Source: Chloranthus sessilifolius
Taxonomy: Eukaryota; Streptophyta; Magnoliopsida; Chloranthales; Chloranthaceae
NCBI GenBank assembly: GCA_021018995.1
Contig: CM037588.1
Span: 39,181,000-39,244,999 of the forward strand
Reading direction: 5' to 3'
Length of the DNA: 64,000 nt
The stretch's first letter is position 1; the number at the start of each line of letters is the position of its first letter. The notes under the pieces were generated by a model that was given only the letters and a program-made list of their open reading frames with translations, ran no database searches and was not told where the DNA came from. The position numbers and the translations under genes are program-made. Shown piece by piece: positions 20,229-59,359 of the stretch.

Positions 20229-21707
20229 TGTGCAATCATGGATTTTTATCAAACCCGTCGTGATGATGCGCTTGTGTGAAAAATATAGAGTCACCACCCG
20301 GAGCTTTTAGTGTCCCGGGAAACCTAAATCAATATTGAAAGCACCAAAGTGCAAAAATATGACTCTGATTTTGGTCTATGCCAAAGGCTCTTGGGTAGGG
20401 GCTTCGATTATCAATCGGGAAGGTGTTAAGCACTAGACCAACCCGCTCGTAAGCGGTCCCTACTATGATTGTTTGGATGTGTAAATAATATATATATATA
20501 AAAGGAAAAGAAAATGAGTGGCACTTTCCCTTGCCCGAAGGCACATTGATCCTATTGAGCCCCTCCTGCTTGCCAAAATTTGGGGAGCGTAACGGCTCAA
20601 TTCTAGGATAGAGGAAAAGTAAAGAAGGTAGAGGAATAGAGGGGAGAGCCGAAGCTCTCGGGCCCTTATAGCATCGCTGTGGTCCTTTGTGTGAGAGCGA
20701 TGCCGGTGAGCTTTCGATAGCAAACAGGTTGTTGGATGGGTTCTAAACTCTAAGTCTAGGAAGCTAGAGGGTAAGAGAAGAGGACTACGACCTAGGTCCT
20801 ACCAAAACTGGGAGATTGATGATGGAAAATGAGATTGAAAGAGATGAACTCAGTTATGGAATTTTATGGGTTTAGTGCTAAAATGGGAGGTGGGGGATCA
20901 CTTACTCTTTTCTCTCTTTAGGAAAACTTTTCAAGCCATTGTAAAGGGAGGGGTGCCTCTCAATTTATAGGAAAAAAGGAGGTTAGGAGGGTACTTAAGA
21001 GCTAATTAGGGTTAACAATTAGATAATCTTCTAATCTAAGGTTTCCTAGGATCTTAAGGCCATGGAAAAGTGGGCAATGGTCTTCAATGGTAGATGATAG
21101 GGTAGGGCTTCAAATGACTAGAGGGCTGCAAATAGGGTAAATGAGGGTGCAACATTTCTAATAAAACCCACCCTAAATATTGGGACGGTCAAAAAGTCAA
21201 ACCCTAAAAGTGAAATTCAAGTAAAAACCAACAGTTACTGTAGCTAAGCCTGGCTCAAGTATTATCCACACCAAGCATATGTACAGTAACAGAGAAGTCC
21301 AGAGCCCACTGGGGTACCCATCCATGCTTGGCGTGTATAATATACACGCCAGGCAAATTCAGCCAAAAAATGGCTTGGCGTGTATATTATCCACGCCAGG
21401 CAATACAGCTCTAATTGAGGCAATTCTTAGCTCGTTGGAAATATGGGGAAGTGCTTTTTTCAATAGTTTATAACTAAACTCCAGTAAAGGTCTGTGTAAA
21501 CATTGGCACTCCTCCTTCCATCCACTGCTCATAAAGGTTTAGAAATTAGTCCGAGACAGGTTAATTCCTAAGGGTTTGGGATGATTCCTGAGGGGTTTTG
21601 ATATGATTCCTAATGGTGGAAGATGCTATCGGAAGCTCAAGGGGGGGGGGGGCAGGTTTCTTGAAGTATGTTTCGACCGGGCCTTGGGCCAAATTTGGGT
21701 GTCTATA
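20229..21707 (-). repeat. 3' LTR of Tat3
   Basis: About 1479 bp; minus strand starts TATAGACACCC (21707) and ends ATTGCACA (20229). Aligns with 51404-52941. Contains two strong dyads (21329-21351 arms TGGCGTGTATA/TATACACGCCA; 21375-21400) and one weaker (21248-21276). A (TA)n run lies near 20485-20500. Confidence 0.85.
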
Positions 21708-21722
21708 GATGCTCCTCTTTGG
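21708..21722 (-). promoter_or_regulatory. Polypurine tract of Tat3
   Basis: Minus strand CCAAAGAGGAGCATC directly before the 3' LTR start. Tat4 (near 43240: AAAGAGGGGCAT) and Tat5 (59360 onward: AGAGGGGCATC) have the same tract, supporting its role as plus-strand primer. Confidence 0.65.
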
Positions 21723-24016
21723 TATCTGATCACTAATGATTGAATGACAAAGACAACAGACATCCGAAGAGGCCCAAGGCAACACTAACGGGTTCGCTGT
21801 ATTTAGAACGAACCTCAAGAATCAGGTGGATAACATGGTGAGTAAATAGAAGCCCTATATGTCTGGAAAAATGTCCGTTCCTCAAGGCTAATGGTCCCCA
21901 AGCGCTTAGCGACATTACTGGGCATAACCGAGATGGAGCGAGTTGCGAAAGCCCAATATGCTGATAAAAATGTTTGCTTCTCGAGATGATTGAAGATGTT
22001 CGTTGTTCGAGTTTCATTCTGAATAAAGCAGCCCCACGAGTGGGAGGGTGATCGACCCATACCTAAAAACTGGTGCGATGCAAAGACGCGAAGATCCACA
22101 GTTTGTGTCTAGTCGTATGAGGCATTGATTGCCTCATTTGATGGGCCATGGGTGCCCCTGCGTGAAGCAGGGTTTGAAGTCTTTGGGCGAACCCATTGAC
22201 CCTGATGTTATTTTAGCACAACTACCCGACCAGAGCGAATTGAGGTGGCAACGCTTTTTGGGAGTGTGTGTCAGTTTTGATAGTGTGTCCTAAATCAATA
22301 TGACCTAGAGTACTCAACTTCAAATAATACTCGAAAGATCCGACAAATATTGGGTGCCTATCGAAGGAGGCACTCAATCTTGGTCTTCGTTAATGATGAT
22401 CTTATTATCGAACAATTATGCAAAAACATGCACTCATTAGGGGTAGATAAAAACAAAGGGGAATGGAAGTCCCAACTCAGAACTTATCTGAGTATAATTT
22501 ATAAGAACAAACGACCACCCAACGGATGCCCAGACATAAGGCGTACACTTTATAGGGATACCGTACAAATGCAGGTTTTAAGCCTGCACCCTAAAATGAG
22601 CCCTTCGGAATGCATATTTGAATATAGTCGTTCGATAGATAATTTTCTTTTTGACTGGTTGGTTTTAACCAAAAATTGACCTTTTTCTGAGGAATCTGAA
22701 GCTTAAGACACTTAAGTTCATGTGAATCTAAAAACAGAGTGCTTGGCGCAAGGATTTAGCAGTGGGATCAACCTGATCGAAACATTGACCGTTTGATCAT
22801 GATTGACATTATTGCTCCTACTCTAAAATAGGATCTAAAGATCCACAGTGAACCTTAGACTCAGGACGTTAATGTACCACAGCTGTGTTGCCGATAAAAT
22901 ATTGACATTTTGTCGCATTGGAGCACGCATGTGTATAGCTGTGCATGAAAAAAAGTACCATGAAAACTCATCTATCTTTTTCCTTTTTCAAATGATTACT
23001 TCTTTTATTTAAATTTTTTTTTTTTTTGAATAGATTGGACGTCGGTGGTTAGATGCTTTATCTGATTTGTCCATCACTGAGAGGTTGCCTGCTTCGAGGC
23101 TTTGGACCATTTGATGTCCCGACACATTCTCAAGAAAACGTCAATCTCTTTTTTTATTTATATAGGTGACAATATGCGTCCCAAGTAACAGAAGGAGAAG
23201 CAACCTTTACCTACACATTTTTAATTTTCAAGATTTATATATTTTTTAGATTTTTGTTTTCAGAGATTTTTTATTCTTTTTCTTCATTTTTGAGATGGAA
23301 GTACGATACAGTAAATACGTACATGTAAGGAGTATATATTTTTTGAAAATTTTCAAATTTCTTATTTTTGTTATTTTTTCTTTCTTTTCTTCTTCTTTTT
23401 TTGTTTGATGCCTTAACAATGAGGTGAAGTAACGAGTCCCATTTTGAGAATAGTCGAACCCTTTCATATGGTCGGACTTGAGTGAGGTTCAAAAATTTTA
23501 CCAAGGTCGGAACATCCATCCCTTTGAATCGAATTAAACTTTTATCCTTACCTCAGGTCGTACGTTTGACGGTGTAGTCTAAAAATATATCTGATCAGGA
23601 CTTGATTTGAGCTAACATGAGGGGCTCGATTGGCGACCAGATAATTCAAAATTGTAACCAAGGAAGTACCTGAAGATTTCTTCTCCTTTTTTTTTTCTTA
23701 ACTTTTTTACTCAAAACGCCCAAGATGGGTTTTCGTCGTGCCTGTTATCGTCTTCTTTTTTACTCGTAGCACCCTTTCGGGTTTTTTATTACGTTCATGG
23801 GTTTTTGCATTTTTACCTAAGGCGCCTTTCCAGGTTTTCACCTAGTTCGCCCAAGCTCGCTGTTTTTACCCATGGCTCTCTTTCGGATTTTCATCACGTC
23901 CTTTTTGCTTTGAGCTTGTATTTTATTATTAATTTTTTTTTTCAAAGGCCATAAAATGGATGTTGACTCCATCATAGCTGGCTTGATCAAATTCATATGT
24001 TTGTCTCACAACTTGG
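21723..24016 (-). other. 3' untranslated region of Tat3 (distal part)
   Basis: Noncoding region between pol and the 3' LTR, with parallels in Tat5 (59360-61500) and Tat4 (42660-43260 and 35340-36110). Visible landmarks: the phrase around 22120-22180 (ATGAGGCATTGATTGCCTCA, itself a dyad), T-rich stretches at 23000-23030 and 23220-23400, and at 23700-23910 an imperfect repeat of CCCTTTCGGGTTTTCACC. The right end (24016) is the Tat4 insertion point. Confidence 0.7.
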
Positions 24017-25596
24017 TGTAGCCACCCAAATTTGGCCTAAGGCCTGATCAAAACACATTTTGAGAAAGGCGCACTTTTGAGCTTTTGATGGCATGTATGG
24101 TACCCTTAGGAACATTTTTAAAACCTTAGGAACCATTCCAAACCCTTAGGAATCACCCTAGATCCCTTAGAAGCCTTCTCGAAACCATAGAAACCCATCC
24201 CGACCCTTATTAACCATTCTGGACCTAAACCTAGTTTTCCCAAGTAATGGATGAGGAATGGTATACTAGGACAAGCTATGACCTTCCACTATGATCAAGT
24301 CTCATACCATTGAAAAGTAGAAGTCTCCAGCTTTCTAACAGGCCAAGGATCACCCCAATTAGAGCTGTACATCAAAAGTTACGATGTTTCAAAGTATAGG
24401 GGCAAATTGGTAATTTAGTGGAGTTCCCTTAGGGTTTTGGCACAAGTATTACTTGCGCCAAGCCATTTCTCTCCAGAAATGGTTTGGCATAACTAATACT
24501 TGTGCTAGCTTTAAGGTGGGCCCCACCTCGGGCAGCCAACTTCCAGGCCACTATGGAACACTATTTTACTGTACATATGCCTGGTGCACCTATTAGTTGC
24601 GCCAGGCTTATAAATAGTAACCCTGTGTTTTTGCCTTGAATTTTGAGATTGGGGTTTGACTTGTTGACCATCTTAATCTTTGGGGTGTATTTTGCTAGTT
24701 CTGTTGCTCCCATTCACTACCTATTTACAACCCCTTAAGTGGTTTAAAGCCTTAACCTATCATCCACCATTAGAGCATCTTTTCACATATTTCAAGGCTC
24801 CAAAAACCCTAGGAAACCTTAGATGGAAAGATTACCTAATTCCTAACCTAGTTTAACCTCTAAACACGCTCCTAACTCCTCTTTTTCCTATAAATAGAGA
24901 GGCATCCCTCTCTTTACAAAGGCTTAAATTTTTTTGCAAAACAAGAGATTAGGAACTCCCTCTCTCTCTCTCTCTCTCCTTTAGTGCAGCTTTTCCATAC
25001 AAATTCTAGAATTCTAAAACTCTCTTTGAGACCCAGCCTTTCATCCAAAATCTCTAGGTTAGGTGTGTGCTACCCCCTAGCCTTCTCTCTCTACCTCTTA
25101 GCTATCAAGCCCTAGGAGCTAGAACCCCATTTCTCACCATACAAGCCATTGAAGCTCACCGAAGCAAACCTACGTAAGGTTCCACAGTGGTGTAATAAGG
25201 GCCCGAGAGCTTTGACTCTCCCCTCTATTCCTCTACCTTCTTGATTCTTCCTCCATCCTCTCATTTGTGCCGTTATACCACCGAATTTTTGGTAGGAACG
25301 GAGGAGCACAAATAGGATTTTAAGGCCCTATGGGCAAGAGGAAGGATTTTTTATTTCTTTTATATTATTTTATTTTGGCCATAAGTAGAGACCGCATTAA
25401 GAGGGTTGATTGGATTCCTAACACCTTCTCAATCGATAACCGAAGCCCCTACCGAAGAGCTCAATTTTTGGCACTTCGGTACTCTTTAAATTTGATTTGT
25501 GTTTCCCAGGACACCAAAAGCTCCAGGTGGTGACTCTTTAATTTTCATGAGTGCACGTCGTCATGATGGGATCCTCTCGATTCTCATGGTTGCACA
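24017..25596 (+). repeat. 5' LTR of Tat4
   Basis: 1580 bp, TGTAGCCACCC to GGTTGCACA, then PBS after two bases. Matches the reverse complement of Tat3 LTRs, so same subfamily. Dyads at 24437-24461, 24483-24507 and 24580-24606. A TATA-like box (CCTATAAATAGAGAGGC) lies at 24889-24905, and a (CT)n run at 24959-24979. Confidence 0.85.
24889..24905 (+). promoter_or_regulatory. TATA box of the Tat4 5' LTR
   Basis: CCTATAAATAGAGAGGC about 705 bp before the LTR end; the same box occurs in the 3' LTR (about 44109) and on the minus strand in Tat3 LTRs. Expected start of the element transcript about 30 bases downstream. Confidence 0.65.
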
Positions 25597-25598
25597 GA

Positions 25599-25616
25599 TG
25601 GCGACTCTGCCGGGGA
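25599..25616 (+). promoter_or_regulatory. Primer binding site of Tat4
   Basis: TGGCGACTCTGCCGGGGA, two bases after the LTR. This resembles the tRNA-Arg type site reported for Ogre-like elements. The Tat3 equivalent at 51384-51401 is a diverged version. Confidence 0.8.
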
Positions 25617-26960
25617 GTAGCTAGTAGAGCTTCCCCTTGAATTTTGGCTATTTATTTTTATTTTTCTAACCATTTTATTACTATTTTTTTACTCACCCCT
25701 CTGATTATGTCGCTTTCTCACTCCTACTTTTATGTCATTTACGAGCCTTAGCCGATTGGCGGGCCTACTTGCGCACCATCTTAAATTTCTTTACATTTCC
25801 ATCATTTTAAGCACCTTGGCTGATTGGCGGGTCTACTTGTGCATTGTCATTTAATTTTTTTACTTTTACGCCATTTTAAGTACCTTAGCCGTTTGGCAGG
25901 CCTACTTGCGCCTTTAATTTCCCCAATCATATTACAAACAGTGGATGCCGGCCCATAGAGGTGGCACGGGATCATCACTTGCGGTCTTTGAACTTAAGAA
26001 AACTCTCTTAAAAGTGAAAAGTAAAATTGAACCAATAAAGGAGACTTAAATTAATTTTTACGGAGTAAATTTTTACGGGTTGGGCTATTTAGGCACACAT
26101 ACAATCTCCCGGGTCTTAATATGGCGGCAGCCCCTAGTGGTGATGATCTAGAAAAGTCCCAGCCCACCTAGTACCTGAGAAAGTGCTTGCACTTGAGGTA
26201 TATCAGGTGGGTAACCTTCTCATTTCCAAGCTTAAAAATTGGGAAAAAAGTGAGCATTAGCAGACCCGCACCGACCTTTAACCCTTCGGTTCGGTGAGGA
26301 AGAGAGCTGATTCGTTAAAATAGTCAATCCCCGGAAGTCCCGCTTCCAGAAAAAACTAGTTAGAAAAACTCATTTCGAGCTAGAACCTCTGCTGTCAAAC
26401 TATCTGGAAGCCCTCTTTTGCCTGGTGCCACTATTACTTGCGATAAGTAAAAAAGCCCCAATATTACTCTGGCGCATGTATTAGTTGCGCCAATATAAGA
26501 GTGGGCACTTTTTGGTCTGGCACACCTAATAGTTGCGCCAGCTTTGGGTTAGACAGCAGCAGCCCGAATCTGTGGCTTGCTTCACATCCCGCCCCAATTA
26601 GTGTCTTTAGTGCCTTTGTTTGGGCCTCGCAATCTCCGACACCCAATACGCCCTCGCCGGTCAAGAGAAGGTGATTTCGTTTTTACTCATTTTGAGGGAT
26701 CGAGTTGTTTACATTGGTTTCTGTGCCTTCAATAGATCAAGGGGTTACCCTTTGATTCTTCTGAAGCGCTTCGGAGCCTTTGCCGCGGGACCTATTTAGG
26801 GTACGAGAGCCACCCGAAAAGGGAATTCAAAAGGCCTCAAAATCCTTAAATCTTTTCACTTATAAAAATTCAGAAAAATCAAATAATTAAAAATCTCAAA
26901 AATAGAGTTTTATTGGTGCCGGCACAACGACATCATCGTACCCTACCCAACACCAAGCCA
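25617..26960 (+). other. Leader of Tat4 with repeats and dyads
   Basis: Long untranslated leader. Three copies of a GCCGATTGGCGGGCC repeat at 25744-25774, 25812-25842 and 25881-25912 (about 68-bp period). Conserved block around 26110-26200 (GGCGGCAGCCCCTAGTGGTG), shared with Tat3 near 50800. Three dyads of the LTR type at 26421-26447, 26469-26493 and 26517-26541. No coding block seen. Confidence 0.7.
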
Positions 26961-28560
26961 TGTCGTAGGCTGTGGATCCGGCCTATGCCGATCCCGACTC
27001 ATCCCCACCGCATTCCCCAACCCATTCCCATGTAGAAGAAATTTTCACATCCATCCCCCTCACCCAATCACCCTTCACCATTTTCGACTTGTTCGACTCC
27101 CCCATCTTTCCATCTACCACCTCCCAAAATATCCAAAATCCAACCCCCCATTCCCAATTTTCACAAGCCATGCCTTCATCCATGGCCATTCCCAATCCAT
27201 CTCACCTTCCATCCACACCCATTTAAAACCCGGTCCAAACCTCCACCTTCACCAATATACCCTATTTTTATCCGCCCGATGCATACCCAATCCACACATC
27301 CATCCATGCCGCATCCAATCCCCATACATCCCTTCATCTACCTTGGTCATGCCCATTTTTATCGGGGCCATGTCCAGCTTTTCTCACTCATCCTCTACAT
27401 CTATGCCCCATACATCCTCTCCATACATGTCCAATCCATCCCCATTCACCAATACCCCACCTCATTTCTCCAACCCACACCATATCCCACCACTTGCCCG
27501 GGTCATGCCCGATTTTATCGGGGCCATGCCCGATTTTACCGGGGCCATGCCCAATTTTTCTTCCTCATCTACCCCATTCATGCCCCTCCAACCCTTAAAT
27601 ACCCTATTTCCATCCGATCCCCCTTCCATGGCCATGATGGAGGAGATGGTCTAAGCTTACAATAGGTGGAAAGCTTCCCAATACATCCCCCTCTCATCCA
27701 CACCACACATCCATGGATCCATCCCATACCCTTTCAAGCCTTCATGCCTCATTCCCCCATGACCCCCATCAACCCCCATCATCCATGCCATCCAAACCCC
27801 CATCACCCACATACCCCAAGGCCCAATAGCCCAAAATCCCATCATCCATACTCATCAGGGGCCCATGGCCCAAACCCATCAAGGGCCTATGACCCAGACC
27901 ATCAAGGGCCCATGGCCTAGACCCATTAAGGGCCCATGACCCAGACCCACCAAGGGCCCATGGCCCAGACCTATCAAGGGCCCATGATCTAGATCCATCA
28001 ATGGCCCATGGCCCAAACCCATAAAGGGCCCATGGCCTAGACCCACCAAGGGCCCATGACTCAGACCCACTAAGGGTCCATGGCCTAGACCCATAAAGGG
28101 CCCATGGCCCAAACCCACCAAGGGCCCATGGTCCAGAACCATACCTAGACCCATCAAGGGCCCATAACCCAGATCCATCAATGGGCCATGGCCCAGACCC
28201 ACCAAGGCCCACTGGGCCAGACCTATGACCAAGGCTTTATGGCCCAACCTCTCTAAGGACCCATGGGCCAGACCATTATAGCCCAACCCTCCTAAGGCTT
28301 CATGGCCCAAACCCAAGCCCAGCAAGGCCCTGACCTTGGAGCCTCACACCCGTACCCTTCACAATTCCTCCAAACTTTCACTCACCCACAACCCTCATAC
28401 CCGGCTCAAACCCATACCCTACATCAACCTCAATTCGCTCATATCCCTACATCCCAAAGTCAGTTCCAAACTTTCTCCCATACCCAATGGCCTCATCAGA
28501 CCCTACCCCAAAATCTGACTTCCACTCATCCCATCACCTAACAAACCTTCCCTCACATTC
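26961..28560 (+). pseudogene. First frame of Tat4: Pro/Ser/His-rich protein with octapeptide array
   Basis: Extra frame upstream of gag, as known in Ogre-like elements. It starts near 26972 (DPAYADPDSSPPHSP) and is rich in Pro, Ser, Thr and His. Around 27500-27560 a MPDFIGAMPDFTGAMPNF repeat is visible; from 27880 to 28212 an octapeptide (THQGPMAQ in its best form) repeats about 14 times; then a Gln/Pro/Thr-rich tail (28302-28541). Tat3 has the same frame on the minus strand. No domain recognised; possibly disordered. Start codon not certain. Broken fossil. Confidence 0.6.
27880..28212 (+). repeat. 24-bp tandem array encoding an octapeptide
   Basis: Unit ACCCATCAAGGGCCCATGGC plus CCAG, about 14 copies with point variation. 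In phase it encodes THQGPMAQ repeats. The same peptide repeats about five times in Tat3 (48880-49010). Confidence 0.85.
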
Positions 28561-28619
28561 AATGGACTCACCCAACCTCCATTCAGACCATTCCCATCCA
28601 GTCCATGCAGCACTAATAA

Positions 28620-32309: not shown

Positions 32310-33430
32310 AGGAGTTACGAGTCTGGACGAGGATGCCCCTGCTGAGGAGCTCCCCAATGAGCTCCTCAATCGGTTTGCCGACTTTGAGCATGGCCCTACC
32401 CCTATTGTCGAAGAAACAAAGGATATCAATCTAGGGATGGAGGAGATTCCCTGAATTACCAAGATTGGAATGTCATTGTCTCCCGAAGAAAGGAAAAGCA
32501 TGATCGATTTCCTTTGGTCATACTATGAGATTTTTGCCTGGTCGTACGAAGACATGCCCGGTCTAGACACCGATTTGGTCGAACATGAGTTGTCCTCTAC
32601 CCTGATGTGAAGTAGGTCAAGCAGAAGCTGAGACGTCTCCGACCCGAGTAGATGCTGAAAGTCAAAGATGAGGTCATCAAGCAGTATGATGTAGGTTTTC
32701 TCATGGTATCCAAATACCCACAGTGGCTAGTCAATATTGTGCCTGTACTGAAGAAGGATGGAAAAGTCCGCATGTGTATCGATTTCCAAAACCTGAGCAA
32801 GGCTAGCCCGAAAGATGATTTCCCATTGCCGCACATTGACATCTTGGTCGATAACACTGCTAAGTGCGGGATGCTTTCATTTATGGATGAATTCTCAGGA
32901 TATAATCAGATCAAGATGGTGGAGGCTGATCGAGAGAAAACAACATTTATCACCCCTTGTGGAACCTTTTGCTATAGAGTCATGCCATTTGGGCAGAAGA
33001 ATGCTTGGGCAACGTACCAGAGAGCTATGACTGTGCTATTTCATGACATGATTAACAAGGAGATTGAGGTGTATGTCAATGATATGATAGCCAAGTCACC
33101 GGAGTGAAGCGATCATCTGATAAACCTCCAGAAGCTGTTTGAGAGGCTAAGAAAGTACAGGTTATGTCTGAATCCACAGAAGTGAGCATTTGGTGTTATG
33201 TCTAAAAAATTGTTAGGATTCATCGTCAGCAAGAGAGGTATCGAAGGCGACCTAGCCAAAGTAAAGGCCATCACAGAAATGCCACCGCCATCTACTGGGA
33301 AAGAGGTCATAGGGTTCTTGGGCAAGATACAATATATCAGTCGGTTCATTGCACAGCTAATGCCTATCTGCACGTCGATCTTTAAGCTACGCCAAAAGAA
33401 CTCTCCCGTTGAATGGAACGACGATTGTTA
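32310..33430 (+). pseudogene. Reverse transcriptase of Tat4
   Basis: Linker with FAWSYEDMPGLDTDLVEHEL (about 32530), then KVRMCIDFQNLSKASPKDDF and PLPHIDILVDNTAKCGMLSF, DEFSGYNQIKMVEADREKTT, CYRVMPFGQKNAWATYQRAM (32652-33107, including the catalytic loop region), and the connection KLLGFIVSKRGIEGDLAKVK (33198-33431). Copies element RNA into DNA. Order and motifs match Tat RT. Broken fossil. Confidence 0.85.
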
Positions 33431-37720: not shown

Positions 37721-38716
37721 CCAAGCTGCTCTAGATCAACGAGCTCGCTCTCATTTAGGCTCCCAAGCTAACTTCTTAGAAAATTGGGCCCCAAGCCCAA
37801 AGAAAGGAGTAAATTGGTTTCGGGCCCTCCATATAAGGGAGGGTTGGAAAGTAGGTCCATGGAGATATAATGATCTTTCAAAAATATAAACTTCGATGTA
37901 TGTCAATGGACCCACCCTTGGGAAAGTAAGGAGAGGAAAAAACAGCTGCAAAAGCCAAGTCAAACTATAAAGAGAGAGAAAATGGCCTTTCTTTGGCATA
38001 TAAAGGGCCCACTACCCCCAGGCTAAATCTGGTGCATGTAATACATGCGCCAGTGTAGATCCCCCCAGGATTGGCCTGGCACATGCAATACATGTGGCAG
38101 ACCAATCTGGCCCTTGTGCATGTAAAAAATGGATTTTTTAAGGGGGAATTTGTGTCTTTGCTGGCCCCCTTACCTAGTTTTCCTATTCACTCGTGGTTCG
38201 TGGCTTGACTACATTCACAAACATAAAAATTTGAAATGCACCTAACATTAAAATCATTTAAATTTTGTGCAGGAAAAACCCACACCAAGGCATGCGACCT
38301 CAAGGGTCATTTTTACGAGCAATCGTCAAAACCATCCTGCAAGCAATCAGATATAATGCAAGGGAAACATAGCATGCGATCAAAGAAAGAGCACTAAACA
38401 TGTCAAAACAAAAGATCATCCAAAAAGTGCCACAATTATCCATCACAATTTGTTTAAATCTCAAATTATCATCTCAAAGTGTTTGAATGAAGAAACTAAG
38501 CCTAGTCCTCTTGTCCGCCTTTGATTTCTTTCACATGCGAGGAGCTTGAAAGGTCCGACATATCTCCTACGGGACCACGCCAGAAAGCTTACTAAGTAAA
38601 GAGCATGACTCCTTGTCACGTGCATGCTACAAGCCATAGCCAAGGTCACAAATCAAGACCAGTTGAGAGATAAAAATGGTAAAGCAGTGAGGGAAACCGG
38701 TCTTCATGATACTCAC
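37721..38716. other. Stretch between the two antisense blocks of Tat4
   Basis: No clear coding block. Two LTR-type dyads lie at 38029-38053 (arms CTGGTGCATGTA/TACATGCGCCAG) and 38075-38100. A minus-strand TATA-like ATATGCC box near 37998 is too weak to call. Confidence 0.4.
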
Positions 38717-40989: not shown

Positions 40990-41750
40990 AACAATTTTTC
41001 TATAAGCCAAGGGAAGGTAAGTATGCTCATCCCTTTCTTTTGTTTTCAAAAAAATATATATATACAAAAAAAATCCCTTTCCTTTTGTTTTCAAAAATAG
41101 AATAAAAATATAAAAATTCCTTTCTTTTAATCTTCAAAAATAAATAAAATAAAACAAAATTTTCCCTTTCTATCTTCAAAAATAAAGCAAATTAAAAACA
41201 AAAAAATCCTTTCTTTATGCTCCTATAATAAAAAAAAAGAGAGAGAAATCCGTCCTTTATGTTTGTAAAATCAAACAAAAACCCCAAACGAAAAATCCCT
41301 TCTTTTATGTCCATAAAAAAAAAAAAAAAACCAACAACAAAAAATAAAATTCCTTAGTTTTCAAAAATAAAAACAAAAATCGAAAATAAAAATTCTTTTC
41401 CTTAATTAATAGAAACCAAAAAAAAATTCTTTCCCTTAGTTAGTTTTCAAAAATAAAGACAAAAAAAAATCCTTTCTTTATGTTCAAAAATAGAAACAAA
41501 AAAAATGAAAAATAAAGTCCTTTCTATGTGCACAGATAAAAATAAAATAAAATATATAGATTATGTATTAATAAAAGCCATAAAACAATAAACATTGGGC
41601 ATCATTCATGAAATATCATCAACTCATCATCAATAAGCATGCTTACAATGAAAATAAATCATTTATGATATAAAAATACAAGATCATGATCACATTTGCA
41701 AGAAAAATTAAAAAAAATCAAATAAAATGGGTTTTAAATGGTTACCTTTG
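40990..41750. repeat. AT-rich low-complexity stretch in the Tat4 3' region
   Basis: Repeated variants of TCAAAAATAAAAACAAAAAA with TCCTTTCTTTATG between them, unit roughly 35-45 bp and strongly degenerate. Nothing coding. Confidence 0.75.
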
Positions 41751-42206
41751 AAGAAAAAGGGTCTTTGATCTAGCATGGAGCGGGCGATCAATCGGCGCAA
41801 GCAAATGCCGGCAATGAAGCACTCTTAGAGGCAATGTATAGGAACCCTAGGAGGAGGTTTATTTTTTGTTTAGAGAGGGAAGAATTTTTTTTGAAAACAC
41901 ACCCCTTTTGCCCAAACTCGGGCTCTTTAAAATTGATCCCCAGCCATGCTTACATGCGCCATGCAATTTTGGGCCCCCAGTTGGTTTGGCGCAACTAATA
42001 GTTGCGCCAAGTCAGTTATGGGCTGGGTTTTGACCTGGTGTGGGTCATATACTCACAACTCGGTACCCCTTCTCTTTGTTTTGTTATCCTCAGCAGGTGC
42101 ACATGCTCCCAAATGGTATGTCGATCTTGATTCGGCTTGCTCGGGAAGCTGTGCTAGAGTAAGTAGATCGAGATCAATGAACACGCTCAAAGAATCCCTA
42201 TCAGAT
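41751..42206 (+). other. Tat4 3' region with a perfect dyad
   Basis: No gene. At 41986-42010 a perfect palindrome: arms TTGGCGCAACTA / TAGTTGCGCCAA around a single A. The same motif class is in the LTRs. Confidence 0.6.
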
Positions 42207-42625: not shown

Positions 42626-43264
42626 AAAAAATACGTGTTTCAAAAAGACAGCACATACTCCCAAAAAGCGTTGCGACATCTATTTGCTCCGCTCGGGTAG
42701 TCGTGCTAAATAAACTTCGGGATCAATGGGTTCACCCAAAGACCTCAAACCCTGCTTCATGCAGGGGCACCCGTGATCAGTCAGATGAGGCAGTCAATGC
42801 CTCATATGATTGGAAACAAACTGTGGAACCTTGCATACTTGCTTTGCACCTATCTTTGAATGTGGGTCGATCACCCCCCTTACTTACGAAGCTATTGTAT
42901 TCAGAATGAATCTTGAACATCAAAATCCTTCAAATCATCTTGAGAAACGAACATTTTTTCTGACTAACAGGCTTTTACAACTCGAGAAGCGAACGTTTTT
43001 CTCAGCTATTGGGCTTTCACAACTCATTCCACCTCGGTTATGTCCAGTAATGTCGCTAAGCATTTGGGGACCGATTACCTTCAGAAACGACCATTTTTCC
43101 TGACATACAGGGCTTTCGTTCTATCACCATATTACTCGTCTGATGTTTGAAGTTCATTCTGAATGCAGCGGACCTGTCACTAATGCATAGGCCTCTTCGA
43201 ATGTCTCTTTTCTTTGGCATTTAATCATTAGTGATCGGATACTAAAGAGGGGCATTTGATCATT
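42626..43264 (+). other. Distal 3' region of Tat4 and polypurine tract
   Basis: Matches (in opposite orientation) 21708-22250 in Tat3 and 59360-59960 in Tat5. The AAAGAGGGGCAT tract near 43242 is the PPT equivalent. The repeated phrase CGAACGTTTTT / CGAACATTTTT near 42948 and 42988 is also in the other copies. Confidence 0.65.
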
Positions 43265-44776
43265 AATGATCAAAACACATTTTGAGAAAGGTGCACTTTC
43301 AAGGTTTCGATGGCATGTATGGTACCCTTAGGAACCTTTTCTAAAACCTCAAGAGCCATTCCAAACCCTTAGGAATCACCCTATATCCCTTAGAAGCCTT
43401 CTCGAAACCTTAGAAACCCATCCCGACCCTTAGAAACCATTCCGGCCCTAAACCTAGCTTTCCCGAGCAATGGATGAGGAATGGTGCACCAGGACAAGCC
43501 ATGACCTTCTACTATAATTTAGCCTTATACCATTAAAAAGTAGAAGTCTCTAGCTTTCCCACGGGCCAAGGAACACCCCAATCGGAGCTATACATCAAAA
43601 GTTACGATGTTCCGAAGTGTAGGGGCAAATTGGTAATTTAGTATAGTACCCCTAGGGTTTTGGCGCAGGTATTACTTGTGCCAAGCCATTTCTTCCTATA
43701 AATGGCTTGGCACAACTAATAGTTGTGCCAGCTTTAAGGTGGGCCCCACCTCGGGCAGCCAACTTCCAGGCTATTGAGGAACATTATTTTACTGTACATA
43801 TGTCTGACACACCTATTAGTTATGCCAGGCTTATGAATAGTAACCTTGTGTTTTTGCCTTGAATTTTGAGATTGAGGTTTGACTTATTGACCATCTTGAT
43901 CTTTAGGGTGTGTTTTGCTAGTTTTGTTGCACCCATTCACTACCTATTTGCAACCCCTTAAGTGGTTTAAAGCCTCAGCCTATCATCCACCATTGGAGCA
44001 TCTTTCACATATTTCAAGGCTTCAAAAATTCTTGGAAACCTTAGATGGCTAGATTACCTAATTCCTAACCTAGTTTAGCCTCTAAACACCCTCCTAACCC
44101 CTCTTTTTCCTATAAATAGAGAGCCACCCCTCCCTTTACAAAGGCTTGAAAAAATGTACAAAACAAGAGATTAGGAACTCCCTCTCTCTCTCTCCTCTAG
44201 TGCACCTTTTGCATGCAAATTCCAAAATTCTAAAACTCTCTTTGAGACCCAACCTTTCATCCGAAAGCTCTAGGTTAGGTGTGTGCTGTCCCCTAGCCTT
44301 CTCTCTCTACCTCTTAGCTATCAAGCCCTAGGAGCTAGAACCCTATTTCTCACCATACAAGCCATTAAAGCTCACTGAAGCAAGCCTACGCAAAGTTCCA
44401 CAGCGGTGCAACAATGGCCTGAGAGCTTTGACTCTCCCCTCTATTCCTCTACCTTCTCAGTTCTTCCTCCATCCTCTCATTTGTGCCGTTACAACACCGA
44501 ATTTTTGATAGGAATGGAGGGGCACAAATGGGATTTTAAGGCCCTTTGGGCAAGAGGAAGGCTTTTTTATTTCTTTTATATTATTTTTATTTTGGCCATA
44601 AGTAGAAACCGCATTAAGCAGGTTGATTGGGTGCCGAACACCTTCCTAATCGATAATCGAAGCCCCTATCCAAGAGCCTTTGGCGCAGTCCAGATTCAGA
44701 GCCAACTTTTGGTACTTCGGCGCTCTTTAAATTTGATTTAGGTTTCTCGGGACACCAAAAGCTCCGGGTAGCGACT
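43265..44776 (+). repeat. 3' LTR of Tat4
   Basis: Aligns with 24017-25596 from GATCAAAACACATTTTGAG to GCTCCGGGTAGCGACTC; its outer ends are not seen. Dyads at 43659-43684, 43706-43731 and 43802-43830 match positions in the 5' LTR. Confidence 0.8.
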
Positions 44777-47391: not shown

Positions 47392-48495
47392 CTAGGCATT
47401 GCAGGCCCACAGATGGTCTGAATGTGGAGTGAGCTTAATGATCATGATTGACATGGGCTTGACATGAAGCTTGATATCAATATCACCCACTATCAGTCTC
47501 ATTGGGCTTCTTGGTGCCCCGGTGCATGGTTCCATAGACAAGTTGAGACTGATAAAAGACATGCTGAAAGTTAATCCTGATCCTTCACTACCCTTTTTTC
47601 TGGATTGGAGGGGTTCAAAACTGTTCGGGCCTTTATGTGAAACCATTTGGCCATTGGGGGCAATGGTATTTTTCTGCCTTTTCACCACGAGAGTTGAGTC
47701 TCTAGTTAGGAGATTTTCTTTGACCAACATCATGGGTATTTCCAAAGGCATTATTGGCAGACTTTCAACGGCCACCTCGATCTGCAATGCTTTTGACTCT
47801 AGTGCCTCTCGACTTTTGAGTAACCATTCTAAAGAGGTCGTGAGGTGTTCATTGACTTGCTTCTTTATTTTTCTATGAGGGTAGAGGTACGCCTCTCCTT
47901 GGGGATGACTTTGCCTTGGTCCTTCATCCACATCTCGATCTAATGCCTCCCCGAGCTCATCCGATGATTGCAGATCATTGGATAATTTACCACTTTCGTG
48001 GGGCTTTCGATTAGATGAAGGCAATGGGTCTTTGAATTGGCGTCTCCAAGTTTTCTTGGGTTGCACACTAGTTGGCATAGATGAGAGACATTTGAGTAGG
48101 TCCAGGGTTGAACCTTCATATTGCATCGATTTTGAGAAGTGAGGACTCGAATATGTTAGCTTATAATCCTCACTTTCAAATGTCTCGTCCTCATCCTCTT
48201 GGTCATCAAAGAACCAGTTACCATCAACGATGTCTCCATCGTTCGACAGCCCGATAGCTTGACCTTTTGAGGGTGAGGGATTGAAACTAACGACCGCCCC
48301 CATGTAGGCTTCTCTATTTTGGACCTCATCCTCCTCATACTGATGACTTGCATCGACAAATGGTTGGGGATTGAAATTGGCAAATGCTCCCATGTAGACC
48401 CCACTATTTCTGGCTTCCTCCTCATCATATTGATTATCCGTATCAACGAATGGGGGAGGAATGTGGTCATCTTGTTGATTCTGAGTGGGCTGCAT
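47392..48495 (-). CDS. Open frame of unknown function in Tat3 (367 codons)
   Basis: Minus-strand open frame. It begins QPTQNQQDDHIPPPFVDT and has a duplicated segment: QYDEEEARNSGVYMGAFANF and QYEEDEVQNREAYMGAVVSF. That segment matches QYEEDEIRNCGAYVGALASI just before gag in Tat4, so the frame is in register with the element's first frame. After that it departs from gag: acidic stretch (DDQEDEDETFESED), basic WRRQFKDPLPSSNRKPHES, then LTTSLEWLLKSREALESKAL and a C-terminal part with MRLIVGDIDIKLHVKPMSI. No domain recognised. No function is claimed. It stays open over 1.1 kb while its surroundings are decayed. Confidence 0.5.
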   Translation of the reverse strand: MQPTQNQQDDHIPPPFVDTDNQYDEEEARNSGVYMGAFANFNPQPFVDASHQYEEDEVQNREAYMGAVVSFNPSPSKGQAIGLSNDGDIVDGNWFFDDQEDEDETFESEDYKLTYSSPHFSKSMQYEGSTLDLLKCLSSMPTSVQPKKTWRRQFKDPLPSSNRKPHESGKLSNDLQSSDELGEALDRDVDEGPRQSHPQGEAYLYPHRKIKKQVNEHLTTSLEWLLKSREALESKALQIEVAVESLPIMPLEIPMMLVKENLLTRDSTLVVKRQKNTIAPNGQMVSHKGPNSFEPLQSRKKGSEGSGLTFSMSFISLNLSMEPCTGAPRSPMRLIVGDIDIKLHVKPMSIMIIKLTPHSDHLWACNA

Positions 48496-48499: not shown

Positions 48500-49929
48500 G
48501 TCTGATTGGGCTATTGCAGATAGGGAAAGCTTTGATGAGTAGCTTGTGGGGTAAGGGGGTGGATGAATGGCGGGTTTTGGGTGGATTGAGTGGGTGCCAG
48601 ATGGGACAATTGTGTATTTTGGGAATTTTGGAGAGTGAGTAGATGGGTAATAGGATGTGAAAATTAGGGATTTTAGATGGTTGGAGATGGGTTCCCCTAT
48701 TGGGATGGGTATGATGGACATGGATGGATGGGGTTCATGTCCGTTTGAGAAGTTGGGAATAATGGGTTTGTAATTTGAGGAGGAATGGGGACTTGTTGGG
48801 TGTAAGTGAATGTGGGATATTGGGGGAGTGATGGAGGGTTTGCAAATGGGGCTCCCTGGTGTGGGCCTTGATGTGCTTGGGGGTAGGGCATGGAGCTTAG
48901 ATGGGCTTGGGCCATTGCGCTTTGGTGGGTCTGAGCCATTAGGCCTTGGTGGAACTGGGCCATTAGTCCTTGGTGGGTTTGGGCCATTAGGCCTTGTTGG
49001 GTTTGGGCCATTGGGCCTTGGTGGGCTAGGGTATAGGGTGTTGGACCTTGAGGCCCACTAAAATGGCCCCATGGTTGGTGGGTGCCTTGGGGGGTATGAA
49101 CAATGGGGGTTGATTAGGGTTGGCATTTTGGGGGAATGACACATGGAGGTTTTGGAGAGTATGGGATGGGTTTGGAGATGTGTGGGATGGATGGGGGAGG
49201 CTTTGAGAAGAGTTCCAAATTGTATAGGCCTTGACCATTTCATCCATTATGATCATGGGATCGGGTGTGGGGGTGGATGTAGATGGTCCATCTGATAAGG
49301 GGGGAGCATGGGACATGGATTCGATGGGTGTGACGACAAAATTGGGCATGGCCTAGGTAAAATCGGGCATGACTTGGGTAGATGGGAGGGAATGTGGTAG
49401 GTTTGGATTGGATGTGGGCATGGTTGGCATGGATGGAGAAAATTGGGACATAGTTTGGGTGGAGGTGTGGGGGAAATGGTGTGTGTGTGTTGGAAAAATG
49501 GCAAATTGGGCATGGTTTTGGGAAAGTTGGGCATGACCTGGGCAAAGGAGGGAGAAAAATGGGGTGAATTTTGAGAGATGGTGGATGGGGAAAAATTAGG
49601 GTTATTTAGATAAGATGTGGAAGGAAAATTTGGCAAGATTTGAGTAGATGAGGGGAAGTGTGATGGATTTCAATTGGATGTGGAGGGAAAATGGGAAGTA
49701 TGTTGGTTTAAAATCTGGGGGGTATTTTGGATTGGTATGGGAGAAAAATGGGATGTATGTGAAAAATTGGGTATGGTGGAAGTGGAAGGAAAATGGGGTA
49801 TATTGGATGTGAATGGGGGAAAATTGGGCATGATGGATGGATTGGGTATGGATGCCTCGGGTGGGGCCTGAAAAGTTTTCTCCTCCCCCTACGGGACGAT
49901 GGAGGGTAAGGCGATGCCGTTGTGTCGGC
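48500..49929 (-). pseudogene. First frame of Tat3 (Pro/Ser/His-rich, octapeptide repeats)
   Basis: Counterpart of 26961-28560 in Tat4. It holds MPNF/SPSFAQVMPNFPKTMPN repeats (49253-49636) and MAQTQQGLMAQTHQGLMAQ repeats (48697-49011), then a Pro/Tyr/Thr tail. About five octapeptide copies versus about 14 in Tat4. Function unknown. Broken fossil. Confidence 0.6.
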
Positions 49930-51383
49930 ACCACAAGTCTTTTTGGATTTTGATTTTTATTTATTTTTTGATTTTTTATTTTTTTAGTTTTTGGATAAAG
50001 CAAATGAACCTTTATAGGATGAGTTCCAAGGCCTTTGGAATTCCTGTTTCGGGCGGCGTTCGCACCCCAAATATTTCTCGCGGCGGGATCCCGATACACT
50101 TTAGAAGAATCAAAGAGAAAACCCCTTGATCTATGTGAAGGCACAGGAATCCATGCGACAACTCGATCCCTCAGAAAAAGTCAATAAGAGGCTGACCTTT
50201 TTTTACCAGCGAGGGCGTATTGGGTGTCAAAGAGTGCGGGATTTATCAGAGATGCTAAGCTGCTAAGTGGGGGACTCGGGGAAGTGAGAAAGGCCTCAGA
50301 TTCGGGCTGCCTAGCCCAGAACAAGCTTGGCGTGTGTATTATATGCACCAGGCCGAAATCTAGAGATTTTGCCTTGACGTGTATATTATACATGCCAGAG
50401 TAATTCTGGGAAAAAGAAGCATGGCGTGTGTAATATACACGCCAGAACAGTTCTAGAAAAAAGTGGCTTGGCGTGTATTTTACATGCGCAATAATATTCA
50501 ATAATATTGAATATCCCTAGGATCGACAAAAATAAGGTATATATTCATATTGACAGCTGAACAGCAAGCCCAAAATTGGTCTCTTTTTTTGGTTTTCTAG
50601 CAGCAATACTTTCGGAACTGACTTTCTTGTTATAACGGGTCCCTCCTCTCTGATCCTAGGGATACAAGGTTGATTCGGGGCAACTAAACGTACTCTCTTA
50701 GGGTTTGAAGCTTTGTAACTAGCTTGGTCACCCATCCAATATACCTCCAACGCAAGCGCCTTCTCAAATACTGGATGGGGTGGTTCTTTTCGGGATCATC
50801 ACCACTAGGGGCTGCCGCCGTAATAAGAATCGGGACGTTTGTATATTTACCTAAAATTTCCAACCCTTATAAAATCTACCCCCACAAAAACTCAATTAAG
50901 TCCCCCTCTTGGTTCAATTTTAATTTCAATTTTAAGGGAGTTTACTTAATGTTCAAAAATCGGGGGTGATGGTCCCGTGCCGCTTCTACGGGCCTGCGGC
51001 CACTGATGGGATATGATTAAATGTAAAACAATGCACAAGAAGGCTCACCAATCAGTTAAGGCATATAAACGACGGAATTTAAATGCGCAAGTAAGCCCGC
51101 CAATCGGCTAAGGCATGTAAATGACAGAATTTAAATGCGCAAGTATGCCTGCCAATTGGCTAAGGCATGTAAATGACGAAAAATAAATGAAAGTAAAGAA
51201 AATGCTCAAGTAGGCCTGCCAATCGGCTAATGCGTGTAAATGACAGAAAAATAGGGGTATGTAAAAAATGATGGAATCATAGGGGTGAGTACAAAAACGA
51301 AAGAGAAATAACAAAAGTTAGTAAAAACAAGAAAGACACATGCAAAAAACAAAGGGCCAACATCAAGTAGAAGCTTTAAAGTA
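49930..51383 (-). other. Leader of Tat3 with repeats and dyads
   Basis: Noncoding. Dyads at 50326-50352, 50372-50398, 50421-50445 and 50467-50490; conserved block near 50795-50815; four copies of the GCCGATTGGCGGGCC-type repeat between 51031 and 51240 (about 52-70 bp apart). Confidence 0.7.
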
Positions 51384-51401
51384 TCCCCCGTAGAGTTGCT
51401 A
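51384..51401 (-). promoter_or_regulatory. Primer binding site of Tat3
   Basis: Minus strand TAGCAACTCTACGGGGGA, two bases after the LTR; diverged form of the Tat4 site. Confidence 0.7.
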
Positions 51402-51403
51402 TC

Positions 51404-52941
51404 TGTGCAATCGTTGATTTTTATCAAACCCGTCGCGATGATGCGCTTGTGTGAAAAATATAGAGTCGCCACCCGGAGCTTTTGGTGTCCCGAGAAACCT
51501 AAATCAATGTTGAAAGCATCGAAGTGTAAAAATATGAATCTAATTCCGATCTACGCCAAAGGCTCTTGGGTAGGGGCTTCGGTTATTGATTAGGAAGGTG
51601 TTAGGCACCCGACCAATTTGCTCGTAAGCGGTCTCTACTATGGCTGTTTGGATGTATATATAAAAAATATATATATAATTATATATATAAAAAGAAAAGA
51701 AAATGAGCGGCACTTCCCCTTGCCCGAAGGCTCACCGATCCTATTAAGCCCCTCCCGCTTGTAGAAATTTGGGCAGCGTAACGGCTCAATTCTAGGATAG
51801 AGGAAAAGCAAAGAAGGTAGAGGAATAGAGGGGAGAGCCGGAGCTCTCAGGCACTTGTAGCACCGCTATGGTCCTTCGTGTGAGAGTGACGCCGGTGAGC
51901 TTTCGATAACAAACAGGTTGTTGGATGGGTTCTAAACTCTAAGGCTAGGAAGCTAGAGGGTAGGAGAAGAGGACTAAGGCCGAGTTCTTACCAAAATTAG
52001 GAGATTATTGATGGAAAATGGGATTGAAAGAAATGAACTCAATTATGAAATTTTATGGGTTTAGTGCTAAAATGGGAGATGGGGGATCACTTATTCTTTT
52101 CTCTCTTTAAGAAAATTTTTCAAGCCTTTGTAAAGGGAGGGGTGCCTCTCTATTTATTGGAAAAAGGGAGGTTAGGAGGGTATTTAAGAGCTAATTAGGG
52201 TTAACAATTAGGTAATCTTCTAATATAAGGTTTCCTAGGATCTTAAGGTCTTGGAAAAGTGGGCAATGGTCTTCAATGGTAGATGATAGGGTGGGGCTTC
52301 AAATGACTAGAGGGTTGCAAATAGGGTAAATGAAAGTGCAACAGTCTTAATGAAACCCACCCTAAACATTAGGATGGTTAAAAGGTCAAATCCCAAGAGT
52401 GATTTTCGAGCAAAAACCAACAGTTACTGTAGCTAAGCCTGGCGCAAGTATTATCCATGCCAAGTATATGTACGGTAACAGAGAAGTCCAGAGCCCGCTG
52501 GGGGACCCATCCATGCTTGGCGTGTATAATATACACGTCAGGCAAATTCAGCCAAAAAATGGCTTGGCATGTATATTATCCATGCCAGGCAAGATCCTGT
52601 AAAACTGCCCAATTTTCAAATCACCATGACGTTTGATATACAACTCCGATTGAGGTGATTCTTGGCTCGTTGGAAAGCTGGGGAAGTACTCTTTCCAATG
52701 GTATATAACTCAGATCCATTAGAGGTCTGTGTAAACTTTGGTACTCCTCTTTCAATCCACTACTCATGATGGTTTAGAAACTGGTTCGGGATGGGTTCTA
52801 AGGGGTCCGAGAAGGTTGGGGTTGATTCCTAAGGGTTTGGAATGATTCCTAAGGGTTTGAGAGATGCTATTGGAAGCTCAGGGGGGGGCCTTTCTTGAAG
52901 TATGTTTCGATTGGGCCTTGGGCCAAATTTGGGTGTCTATA
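51404..52941 (-). repeat. 5' LTR of Tat3
   Basis: 1538 bp; minus strand TATAGACACCC (52941) to GATTGCACA (51404). Dyads at 52439-52463, 52517-52542 and 52564-52589. (TA)n run at 51655-51690. In about 240 bp compared by eye with the 3' LTR I count about 28 differences, nearly all transitions. Confidence 0.85.
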
Positions 52942-52946
52942 GGAGG
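52942..52946. repeat. Target site duplication GGAGG (right of Tat3)
   Basis: Second copy of the Tat3 flank. Confidence 0.85.
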
Positions 52947-53523: not shown

Positions 53524-53526
53524 GAC

Positions 53527-53544
53527 TGGTGATCACGATTGGAC
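53527..53544 (+). promoter_or_regulatory. Possible primer binding site of Tat2
   Basis: TGGTGATCACGATTGGAC three bases after the inferred LTR end. It begins TGG and partly matches the Tat4 site, but I cannot assign a tRNA. Confidence 0.35.
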
Positions 53545-53689
53545 TCTTTTTGGTAAAGTAGTTTCTTCTAGCTTAACATTATTTTCCTACTTTATCTTAG
53601 TTAGTTTTACTTTTCTACTTTGTTTAGTTTGATTTCTCACTTTATCACTTGGCTACACACGCTCACCCTCTCGAGAGCTCCCCGAGAGT

Positions 53690-56936: not shown

Positions 56937-57003
56937 AGACTGACCAAGAGAGTGACAAGTCCCGACCTCACACGACTATATGACATAAACCCGACCCCAA
57001 TGA

Positions 57004-57811: not shown

Positions 57812-58575
57812 GTGAAGCAACTAGACATAGACCTCCAAAGCCCATCTGATGAAGAAGATGAGTCTCAGCAAGATGACTCCAGCTCTAGTAACAGTGGCCC
57901 CGACCCCGATTTTGAGGGATGGGAATGCCCATGGGAGTATCCTTGCATATCTCAACCATACCAGCCACGCTGCCGGGTATGCTCCTTTATCCTGACATAC
58001 CGTGAAACCTAAGGAGAAGAATCCTCCAGCTTATAGGGTGATCAACCAGGCTTGCCAGAAGAAGGAAGAGCCAGAAGATCTCCGAGCCCTCTTTGAAGAC
58101 CAAGCCATCCTTACGATAGATGAAGTCGAATCATCAATCAGACTGCCACCTTTGTCACTCATCCAAAGGATTACGTTAGATGAGGGCTATAAAAAAACCA
58201 TTGAATTTAGAATGAGTCCACATCATCCGAAGGCTCGCACAAACGGCTTCAATAGTCGTTACACTTCCTCAACTGAGAGAGGTGCCCCCATCGATTCCTC
58301 TTCAGGAAATCGACCTTGTACCATACTTATTATCAAAAATAAAAAAATAGAAGACCCTAAAACCCTTAAAAATCAAAAAATAAAAAATCCAAAAAGCTAT
58401 TAATCAGTGCAACGCTTAACCCCAAAGAGTGATAATAGATTATCCAAGTCCTTCAAGATCACATCAGCTCCTTCGCATGGTCCTACGAAGACATGCTTGG
58501 TCTGGACCCAAGCTTAGTAGAACATCGTTTAGTCCTGGAACCTGATTAGAAACCTATCAAGCAGAAATTAAGATA
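57812..58575 (+). pseudogene. Tat2 pre-RT linker
   Basis: Acidic Ser/Asp-rich piece (PSDEEDESQQDDSSSSNSGP, 57812-58012), then LRALFEDQAILTIDEVESSI (58002-58403), then SSFAWSYEDMLGLDPSLVEH at about 58460-58520, the pre-RT phrase of Tat pol. Tat2-like text stops at about 58575. Broken fossil. Confidence 0.6.
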
Positions 58576-59359
58576 GGGTGTTAATTGGGTTAGAAATTAG
58601 GTAATCTATAATCTAAGGTTATTGATTTGAAGGCTTGGAGAAGAGGGATTTAGGTTTTAATGGTGGATGATAGGGTGATGGGTTGGATGGAAAAAGGGTT
58701 AAACTTAAGGTGGGGAAGGGCATAAGGGTTCTAAAAATATATACCTCAATCTCTGGGGTGGTCCACAAGTCAAACCCTAAAACAAAATTATGCCATTTTT
58801 CCCGAAATTCAAGGTTTTAAGTTGTGCGTACATCCAATGTATGCATAGCTTAGGAGCAGTGCACCTAAGAAGTTCAGAGTCCATTTCGGAGCTCAATCTG
58901 AAGTAAAAACACCAAATTTGGCTATGCATACATCCATTGTATGCATGGCCATTTTCTACAAAAAATTGCTCATGCGTACATTGGATGTAAGCATTTGTAA
59001 TTTCCTGCATATTTATTCTTTTTTCATATCGCCCTAACTTTTGACGTATAACTCTGAATTTTGTGATTCTTGGCTCGTTGGAAACCTAGGAACCTCTAAT
59101 TTCCAATGGTATAGGCCTCAGCCTCAGAAGATGTCCATGTAAATTTTGGCACTCCTCTTTCCATCCACTGTCTTGATTGAGCTTCCTAAGGGTCCGAGAA
59201 GGTTTTTAAGGGTTCGGGTTTATTCCTAGGGTTTGGGATGATTCCTAAGGGTTTTCGGATGAATCCTAAGGGTTTGGGAAGTGCTCTTGGAAGCTCAGGT
59301 GCACGCCTTTCTCTGACGTATGTGTCGACCGTGCCTTGGGCCAAATTTGGGTGTCTACA
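58576..59359 (-). repeat. LTR part of Tat5
   Basis: Minus strand starts TGTAGACACCCAAATTTGGC at 59359 and aligns with the first half of the Tat3 LTR. Dyads at 58823-58847, 58922-58949 and 58972-58994 use a different word (TGCGTACAT/ATGTATGCA) from the Tat3 and Tat4 LTRs at the matching place. Confidence 0.8.

Follow-up and report, generated by a model that had tools for sequence, protein, structure and literature searches.

A stretch of 64,000 nucleotides from Chloranthus sessilifolius (GenBank assembly GCA_021018995.1, contig CM037588.1, positions 39,181,000 to 39,244,999; here called the window) contains nested Ty3/gypsy long terminal repeat (LTR) retrotransposons that carry a short, periodic dyad motif. 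Element B, on the minus strand, is interrupted by element A, on the plus strand, and a single minus-strand LTR of a third family, C, lies at ~58.56 to 59.35 kb. The LTR ends were taken by eye and from the repeat table. Those of A lie at ~24019 to 25596 (5′; ends by eye; TATA box near 24889) and ~43240 to 44760 (3′; approximate, presumably paired with the LTR at 24019), and those of B lie at ~51400 to 52930 (5′) and ~20229 to 21712 (3′), both approximate. Within A and B, the LTRs are presumed to pair with each other because their orientations agree and their U3 regions are ~90% identical.

Element A retains a reverse transcriptase (RT) fragment (32652 to 33107, plus strand; PF00078, RVT_1, E value of 1.7e-14) and an RNase H fragment, for which RT_RNaseH is the only RNase H profile match. 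Among the 120 relatives of this RT listed, all those with an organism name are from plants, and one is named Ty3-G polyprotein; scans of IMG/VR and GTDB gave no confirmed relative. Between pol and the 3′ LTR lies an antisense open reading frame (ORF) with a plant mobile domain (PMD) (40091 to 40699, minus strand; PF10536, E value of 1.4e-12). With a Ty3-type RT and this extra PMD ORF, A is a probable Tat/Ogre-type element; a passage of PMC6317226 states that 57% of Ogre elements have an extra ORF with a plant mobile domain. Tandem repeats of 24 bp occupy corresponding places in A (27846 to 28313) and B (48902 to 49025).

Distribution of dyads within the elements

The five LTRs examined in the window carry three dyads apiece, d1, d2, and d3, which occupy homologous alignment columns between conserved flanks and, in U3, sit upstream of the TATA box. 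In the 5′ LTR of A, they lie on the plus strand at 24438 to 24460 (d1, 10/11 pairs), 24485 to 24507 (d2, 8/11, 47 bp past d1), and 24582 to 24604 (d3, 9/11); their counterparts in the 3′ LTR lie at 43661 to 43683 (9/11), 43708 to 43730 (11/11, again 47 bp past d1), and 43805 to 43827 (8/11). On the minus strand, d1 and d2 of B are found at 52565 to 52587 and 52518 to 52540 in the 5′ LTR (10/11 each) and at 21376 to 21398 (10/11) and 21329 to 21351 (11/11) in the 3′ LTR. The third position of B (52440 to 52462, 6/11; 21251 to 21273, 5/11) combines a left arm like that of B d1 with a right arm of the A type, resembling an arm exchange between dyads; this mixed state occurs in both LTRs and is thus presumably older than their separation. 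In the LTR of C, also on the minus strand, d1 (58972 to 58994) lies 48 bp from d2 (58924 to 58946), with its CCA/TGG core inverted relative to that of d2, and d3 (58823 to 58847) reads TGCGTACAT CCA ATGTATGCA on the plus strand, the dyad itself spanning 58825 to 58845.

The original prediction, made from these letters without database searches, described two or three dyads at corresponding places in LTRs of the Tat type. The count of three per LTR bears this out, with B d3 poorly paired, and the dyads that it quoted are present: 21329 to 21351 pairs at 11/11, 24437 to 24461 has one mismatch, and 58825 to 58845 falls within the quoted 58823 to 58847. At 43706 to 43731 there is likewise a dyad, paired at 11/11 in 43708 to 43730, with the quoted start one base too early (43707 to 43731).

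LTRs are not the only parts of the elements with the motif. That prediction lacked the dyads at 26.4, 38.0, 42.0, and 50.3 to 50.5 kb, the period of 47 bp, and the common caps and core described below. The leader of A has three on the plus strand (26423 to 26540; starts at 26423 [decayed], 26470, and 26518; spacing of 47 and 48 bp), and that of B has four on the minus strand (50328 to 50491; starts at 50328, 50375, 50422, and 50469 [decayed]; spacing of 47 bp throughout). Two more follow pol in A on the plus strand (38030 to 38099; inner bases ATG/CAT; starts at 38030 and 38077; spacing of 47 bp), and a perfect dyad (41987 to 42009, plus strand, 11/11) lies upstream of the antisense PMD gene, by eye within tens of base pairs of a TATA-like stretch. 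Just downstream of this perfect dyad, the antisense gene may, by eye, have its core promoter and the splice donor of its first exon on the minus strand (41747 to 42009). We also considered whether nested insertions target dyads and rejected this idea, as by eye none lies near the insertion point of A, the one insertion examined.

The presence of U3 sites upstream of TATA would suit LTR promoters that make use of a dimeric transcription factor of the host, and plant NAC factors are described in a passage of PMC4081100 as binding palindromes as dimers. Yet element-specific words repeated across leader and post-pol regions would seem unusual for host sites, and we consider this explanation distinctly unlikely. 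The NAC palindrome CGTN7–8ACG given in the same passage, the one host motif compared, was rejected by eye: the B word has CGT N11 ACG, and the A words have neither.

Form, period, and background

The dyads of A and B are 23 bp long, with caps TGGC/GCCA and a TA-W-TA core. In each arm, five inner bases vary by family yet mostly remain complementary to those of the other arm. From the quoted dyads, we wrote the search frame TGGCN5TAWTAN5GCCA, which matches the window 11 times exactly and 19 times with at most one mismatch, against expectations of 0.0 and 0.1 (first-order Markov model, 20 simulations). The central base is W in 20/20 A and B dyads, as the frame itself demanded. Symmetry of this degree is rare in the neighboring LTR sequence, a comparison that the original prediction had proposed: outside the dyads, 8 of 10 pairs occur at 1.9% of 2260 U3 positions and 9 at none. 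As a further control, viral contigs were searched with the frame extended by one more T/A on each side; among the 120 matches listed, 4/5 inner pairs occur in two and 5/5 in none. The pattern TTGGCGYRNNTAWTANNYRCGCCAA had no match in IMG/VR.

Neighboring dyads in A and B are 47 bp apart (once 48), and the spacers measure 24 to 25 bp in all 11 genuine neighbor pairs that were tabulated, with C among them. Outside the totals given here is a twelfth row, whose guessed partner near 41940 is a half-dyad rather than a dyad. Within elements, dyad identity is 0.80 in A and 0.81 in B, and spacer identity is 0.38 (A, three comparisons) and 0.48 (B, six comparisons), with shuffled spacers at 0.26.

Paired change in A and B

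Pairing was tested on 20 dyads of A and B, the decayed copies at 26423 and 50469 being dropped. Inner pairs are Watson-Crick in 71/100 cases, compared with 42.8 after right-arm words are exchanged among dyads (0/5000 shuffles reach the observed value), so the expected excess over shuffled controls is present. The result holds with one LTR per element (51/70 versus 30.8 or 32.0; 0/5000 in both sets), and A alone has a smaller excess (43/55 versus 35.0, 124/20000; with one LTR, 32/40, 144 or 352 of 20000). A pair counter likewise gave more paired cells (89.1% versus 80.3), more two-sided cells (33 versus 16.4), and higher covariation (0.365 versus 0.216; each 0/500), and sliding the partner arm abolished this signal. 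Neither the number of pairs with two-sided change (5 versus 4.8) nor the number of pair types (13 versus 13.6) exceeded shuffles in that test. Between A and B, the inner arms are only 13 to 20% identical, compared with 62% for the spacer and 66 to 67% for the rest of U3.

Paired change between families

The 200 kb of flanking genome contains further arrays with new paired words whose neighbors are again 47 bp apart. One of these families, D, has the word GTATA, and most of its dyads are capped GGGC/GCCC or AGGC/GCCC. Pairs can be compared at homologous positions, since in an alignment of U3 from A, B, two copies of C, and two of D, conserved blocks surround d1, d2, and d3. Between families (A3L, B3L, C3L, and D1; 18 dyad comparisons of 11 pairs), 46 changes are two-sided and paired, 41 are one-sided, and 26 are two-sided but unpaired in at least one of the two families compared. 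Within families (LTR pairs for A and B; separate insertions for C and D), only 2 are two-sided and paired, 19 are one-sided, and 3 are other; D2 d3 was excluded from these counts for a 1-base deletion. The contrast between one-sided and two-sided paired changes, between versus within families, gives a Fisher p of 0.0004 with C and D added, the comparisons being nonindependent; with A and B alone, it was not significant (p of 0.10 to 0.39).

Across the four families, 44/60 inner pairs are Watson-Crick at an arm identity of 0.38. Under a neutral model (two settings with 3000 star-tree simulations each, identity of 0.33 to 0.41), the mean is 20 to 25 and the maximum is 38. Two-sided paired inner changes number 28, against ~4 in simulations (maximum of 17), and one-sided changes number 25, against 40 to 44. 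These figures bear on whether the dyads could be left over from an ancestral palindromic tandem repeat and have no role today, their shared words reflecting descent only. The spacers of some arrays are similar (15 to 16 of 24 positions), which suggests that the arrays share an origin, and in a passage of PMC3212565 some Silene satellites are described as having only a palindrome in common. However, dyads and spacing have persisted while the spacers diverged, and the neutral simulations did not produce the observed pairing; we therefore disfavor this reading as very improbable.

The symmetry might instead be mutational. In template switching during reverse transcription (or replication), a nascent strand would copy one arm onto the other and might invert the core. 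Such events are described in PMC8604942 and PMC8794818 as homogenizing the arms of inverted repeats and inverting the spacer, and the inverted repeats treated there resemble the dyads in arms that change together and, perhaps, in core inversion; they differ in coming from rRNA genes and yeast coding DNA, with no periodic transposon motif. In the window, core orientation is opposite in A and B at all three U3 dyads and mixed in C (CCA in one dyad, TGG in two), and mixed-arm dyads exist (B d3 and the A leader dyad at 26470). On the other hand, template switching leaves the constant 47-bp period, the shared caps, and the element-wide common word unexplained, and the mixed-arm dyads remain uncorrected, the arms of B d3 being unmatched. 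When the whole d1-d2 block of A is compared with that of B for inversion, scores are alike in both directions. Since within-family changes are mostly one-sided, template switching would have to act mainly during retrotransposition. For the same reason, the suggestion that one arm is converted to the other finds no support in inserted copies; conversion during reverse transcription may occur. Template switching ranks next after the dimer sites proposed below and is their main rival, a serious but on the whole doubtful one.

Genome-wide occurrence

In the 2.17 Gb of genome scanned (32 contigs, with the window on contig C5), the frame has 33,492 exact matches, compared with 15 for the pattern read backwards, and the GGGC...GCCC version has 4,760, compared with 7 for its control. 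The mixed cap TGGC...GCCC is found 1,167 times in the forward direction and 1,154 times in reverse. At the outermost pair, T-A (33,492) and G-C (4,760) thus far outnumber T·C (1,167) and G·A (1,154), with an odds ratio of 118 and a paired fraction of 0.943 versus 0.751 expected; these match counts weigh copy number, not events. Among the first 50 distinct frame sites listed, which follow one another by coordinate along contig C1, 201/250 inner pairs are Watson-Crick versus 171.7 shuffled, and their 30 distinct words give 108/150 versus 85.0 (0/5000 in each case). The first 50 GGGC...GCCC sites listed have 204/250, a figure given without a shuffle comparison. Twelve neighbor spacings below 60 bp occur among the 50 frame sites: six of 47, four of 48, and two of 37 bp. 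The latter (C1, 2721565 to 2721602 and 2736750 to 2736787) are about one helical turn short of 47.

Paired changes on both arms, as originally predicted, are therefore found in the window shuffles, at homologous positions of four families, and genome-wide at the outermost pair. The accompanying claim that structure and not the word is kept stands in part: the arms covary, but caps and core are shared words in A and B, and most dyads within an element carry forms close to a single word.

A 264-kb region that includes the window has 143 dyad centers with at least 9/11 pairs, compared with 49 to 65 in four second-order simulations, and its spacing histogram peaks at 47 bp (18 pairs). Outside the frame, 26 pairs lie at 44 to 49 bp, versus 11 per 6-bp bin elsewhere; the 26 include C and some D dyads. 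The motif is thus widespread, periodic, and symmetric. LTRs in the window that we take to be Athila-like (at 5280 to 5502 and 14940 to 14958) have dyads of the form AAATCGTAAAT.ACGATTT, with neighbors 45 to 46 bp apart in the first of these places; this word (AAATCGT...ACGATTT) is an unrelated one, and the 46-bp spacing recurs at loci L129 and L130.

Several further palindromes were observed in the region. Other recurrent dyad words (e.g., TTCGCAAAGAACCTTGAACTTTGCGAA and GATTGATCGATTTCTCAAATCGATCAATC), perhaps of further families with their own words, occur at loci L125, L128, L130, L135, L137, L139, and L140 (C5:39090983, 39118308, 39135831-39136029, 39252179, 39267605, 39286225, and 39296666). 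In the window, an array of TCGATTAATCGA-type palindromic words with a period of ~21 spans 16605 to 16995, and a perfect dyad, CTAGAGTCGACAGTCGACTCTAG, lies at 2148 to 2170, ~1 kb from a gag ORF.

Folding of neighboring dyads

In addition to pairing within each dyad, the stretch from d1 through the spacer to d2 may fold into a single long hairpin close to the 3′ end of the element's RNA, serving perhaps in its export or packaging or in the production of small RNAs. Every one of the five U3 d1-d2 segments folds much more stably than its shuffles (RNA z of −4.3 to −9.7), and the long hairpin can form in 4/5 blocks with DNA parameters and 5/5 with RNA parameters. Long-range pairs are Watson-Crick at 16 to 22 of 23 positions in the 11 genuine dyad pairs, and the d1 and d2 cores are inverted relative to each other in A, B, and C. 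Selection on RNA is expected to favor G·U. Yet long-range mismatches include 12 G·U and 15 A·C (11 genuine units), and local ones, in element sense over 11 pairs, include 15 G·T and 14 A·C; neither comparison indicates a wobble preference, and decay after insertion, which is neutral, weakens both tests. Moreover, the after-pol dyad pair folds locally instead, the ninth pair in the 3′ LTR of A suits local and not long-range pairing (by eye), and the dyad segments matched 0 Rfam families at the gathering score, which counts against an RNA structure. We regard this explanation as unlikely, if less so than host sites.

Discussion

Our preferred reading, held tentatively and at somewhat less than an even chance, is that a dimeric protein with sequence specificity recognizes the dyads at the DNA level. 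Each arm would be a half-site contacted by one subunit, and several sites, ~47 bp apart, would line the noncoding parts of the element: U3 upstream of TATA and the leader and, in A, also the gap after pol and the region upstream of the antisense gene. Specificity for the element would reside in the five inner bases of each arm, with the outer caps and core common to A and B. Because both subunits would read the same half-site, a change of word must affect both arms and all sites; the word would therefore drift while the symmetry stays. An element-encoded factor, for example, the antisense PMD product of A, would best account for words shared across an element, and its binding might influence transcription or silencing.

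Several observations weigh against this reading. The constancy of caps and core in our catalogue is partly ascertained, because the search frame contained both. B alone has no excess of pairing (28/45 versus 26.8 shuffled, 1552/5000); as most of its dyads closely resemble a single word, shuffling the arms costs almost nothing. In comparisons with C, inner-arm identity is not extreme (A-C, 37%; B-C, 37 to 50%; rest of U3, 58 to 61%), 26 of the 113 changed between-family pairs are two-sided yet not paired in both, and common descent of the dyads leaves few independent events. Both LTRs of B have an asymmetric d3, and an asymmetric word, GCAAC with CATGC, recurs at 3 of the 50 frame sites listed and, as an exact word, in 10 copies among the mixed-cap places listed; symmetry thus appears to be preferred, not required. 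In most copies, the U3 d1-spacer-d2 block also folds into a single long hairpin, a property that protein sites do not need. As for an encoding gene, the PMD ORF of A had no relatives at an E value of 1e-10, and the one B ORF scanned (47392 to 48495) had no Pfam family match.

The motif itself is not described in the papers listed by the literature searches (titles, abstracts, and passages, with subscription papers mostly outside the scope), in line with the remark in the original prediction that no description was known to its author. The nearest analogue in behavior, rather than in membership, appears to be the VANDAL/VANC system of Arabidopsis. VANDALs are DNA transposons, and their VANC proteins counteract silencing. 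Like the VANC motifs in passages of PMC5735166 and PMC10398659, which stand in rows in noncoding regions, differ between related families, and change together within a family, the dyads form rows of short, family-specific motifs in noncoding parts of their elements. Unlike the dyads, the VANC motifs are not called palindromes, the string “palindrom” occurring 0 times in PMC5735166. By eye, the A and B catalogue has no match to the published motifs (YAGTATTAY and AGTTGTCC/AC), the best being 8/9 to YAGTATTAY in A d1 and B d3.

Retand and Ogre/Tat elements, as described in passages of PMC11963269 and PMC6317226, share with A a long internal region, an antisense ORF between pol and the 3′ LTR, and family-specific tandem repeats. 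Their repeats lie between pol and the 3′ LTR, and those passages do not describe U3 or leader dyads with a 47-bp period. A PMD protein is likewise tied to a short promoter motif in the case of the “DOWN” motif and the PMD proteins MAIN and MAIL1; in passages of PMC7156037 and PMC9899485, direct recognition is unproven, and the example CATGCAGTTT is nonpalindromic and by eye has no match to the dyads.

If the dyads are dimer sites, they may be an LTR-retrotransposon counterpart of VANC, a narrower proposal that we consider fairly doubtful. Each family's own dimeric factor would read its symmetric word at sites phased by 47 bp, and factor and word would codiverge, preventing the cross-activation of related families. 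If template switching keeps the motif instead, reverse transcription would be maintaining palindromes without selection. For the extra antisense genes of Tat, Ogre, and Retand elements, the passages and abstracts searched give no established function, and the motif offers a new handle on self-recognition in the family-specific control of LTR elements. With tens of thousands of copies in a single genome, this symmetric, covarying, periodic site gives the search for its reader a concrete target. Should the VANC-counterpart proposal be true, the Athila-like word at 45 to 46 bp would imply that such sites are a general device of plant Ty3/gypsy elements.

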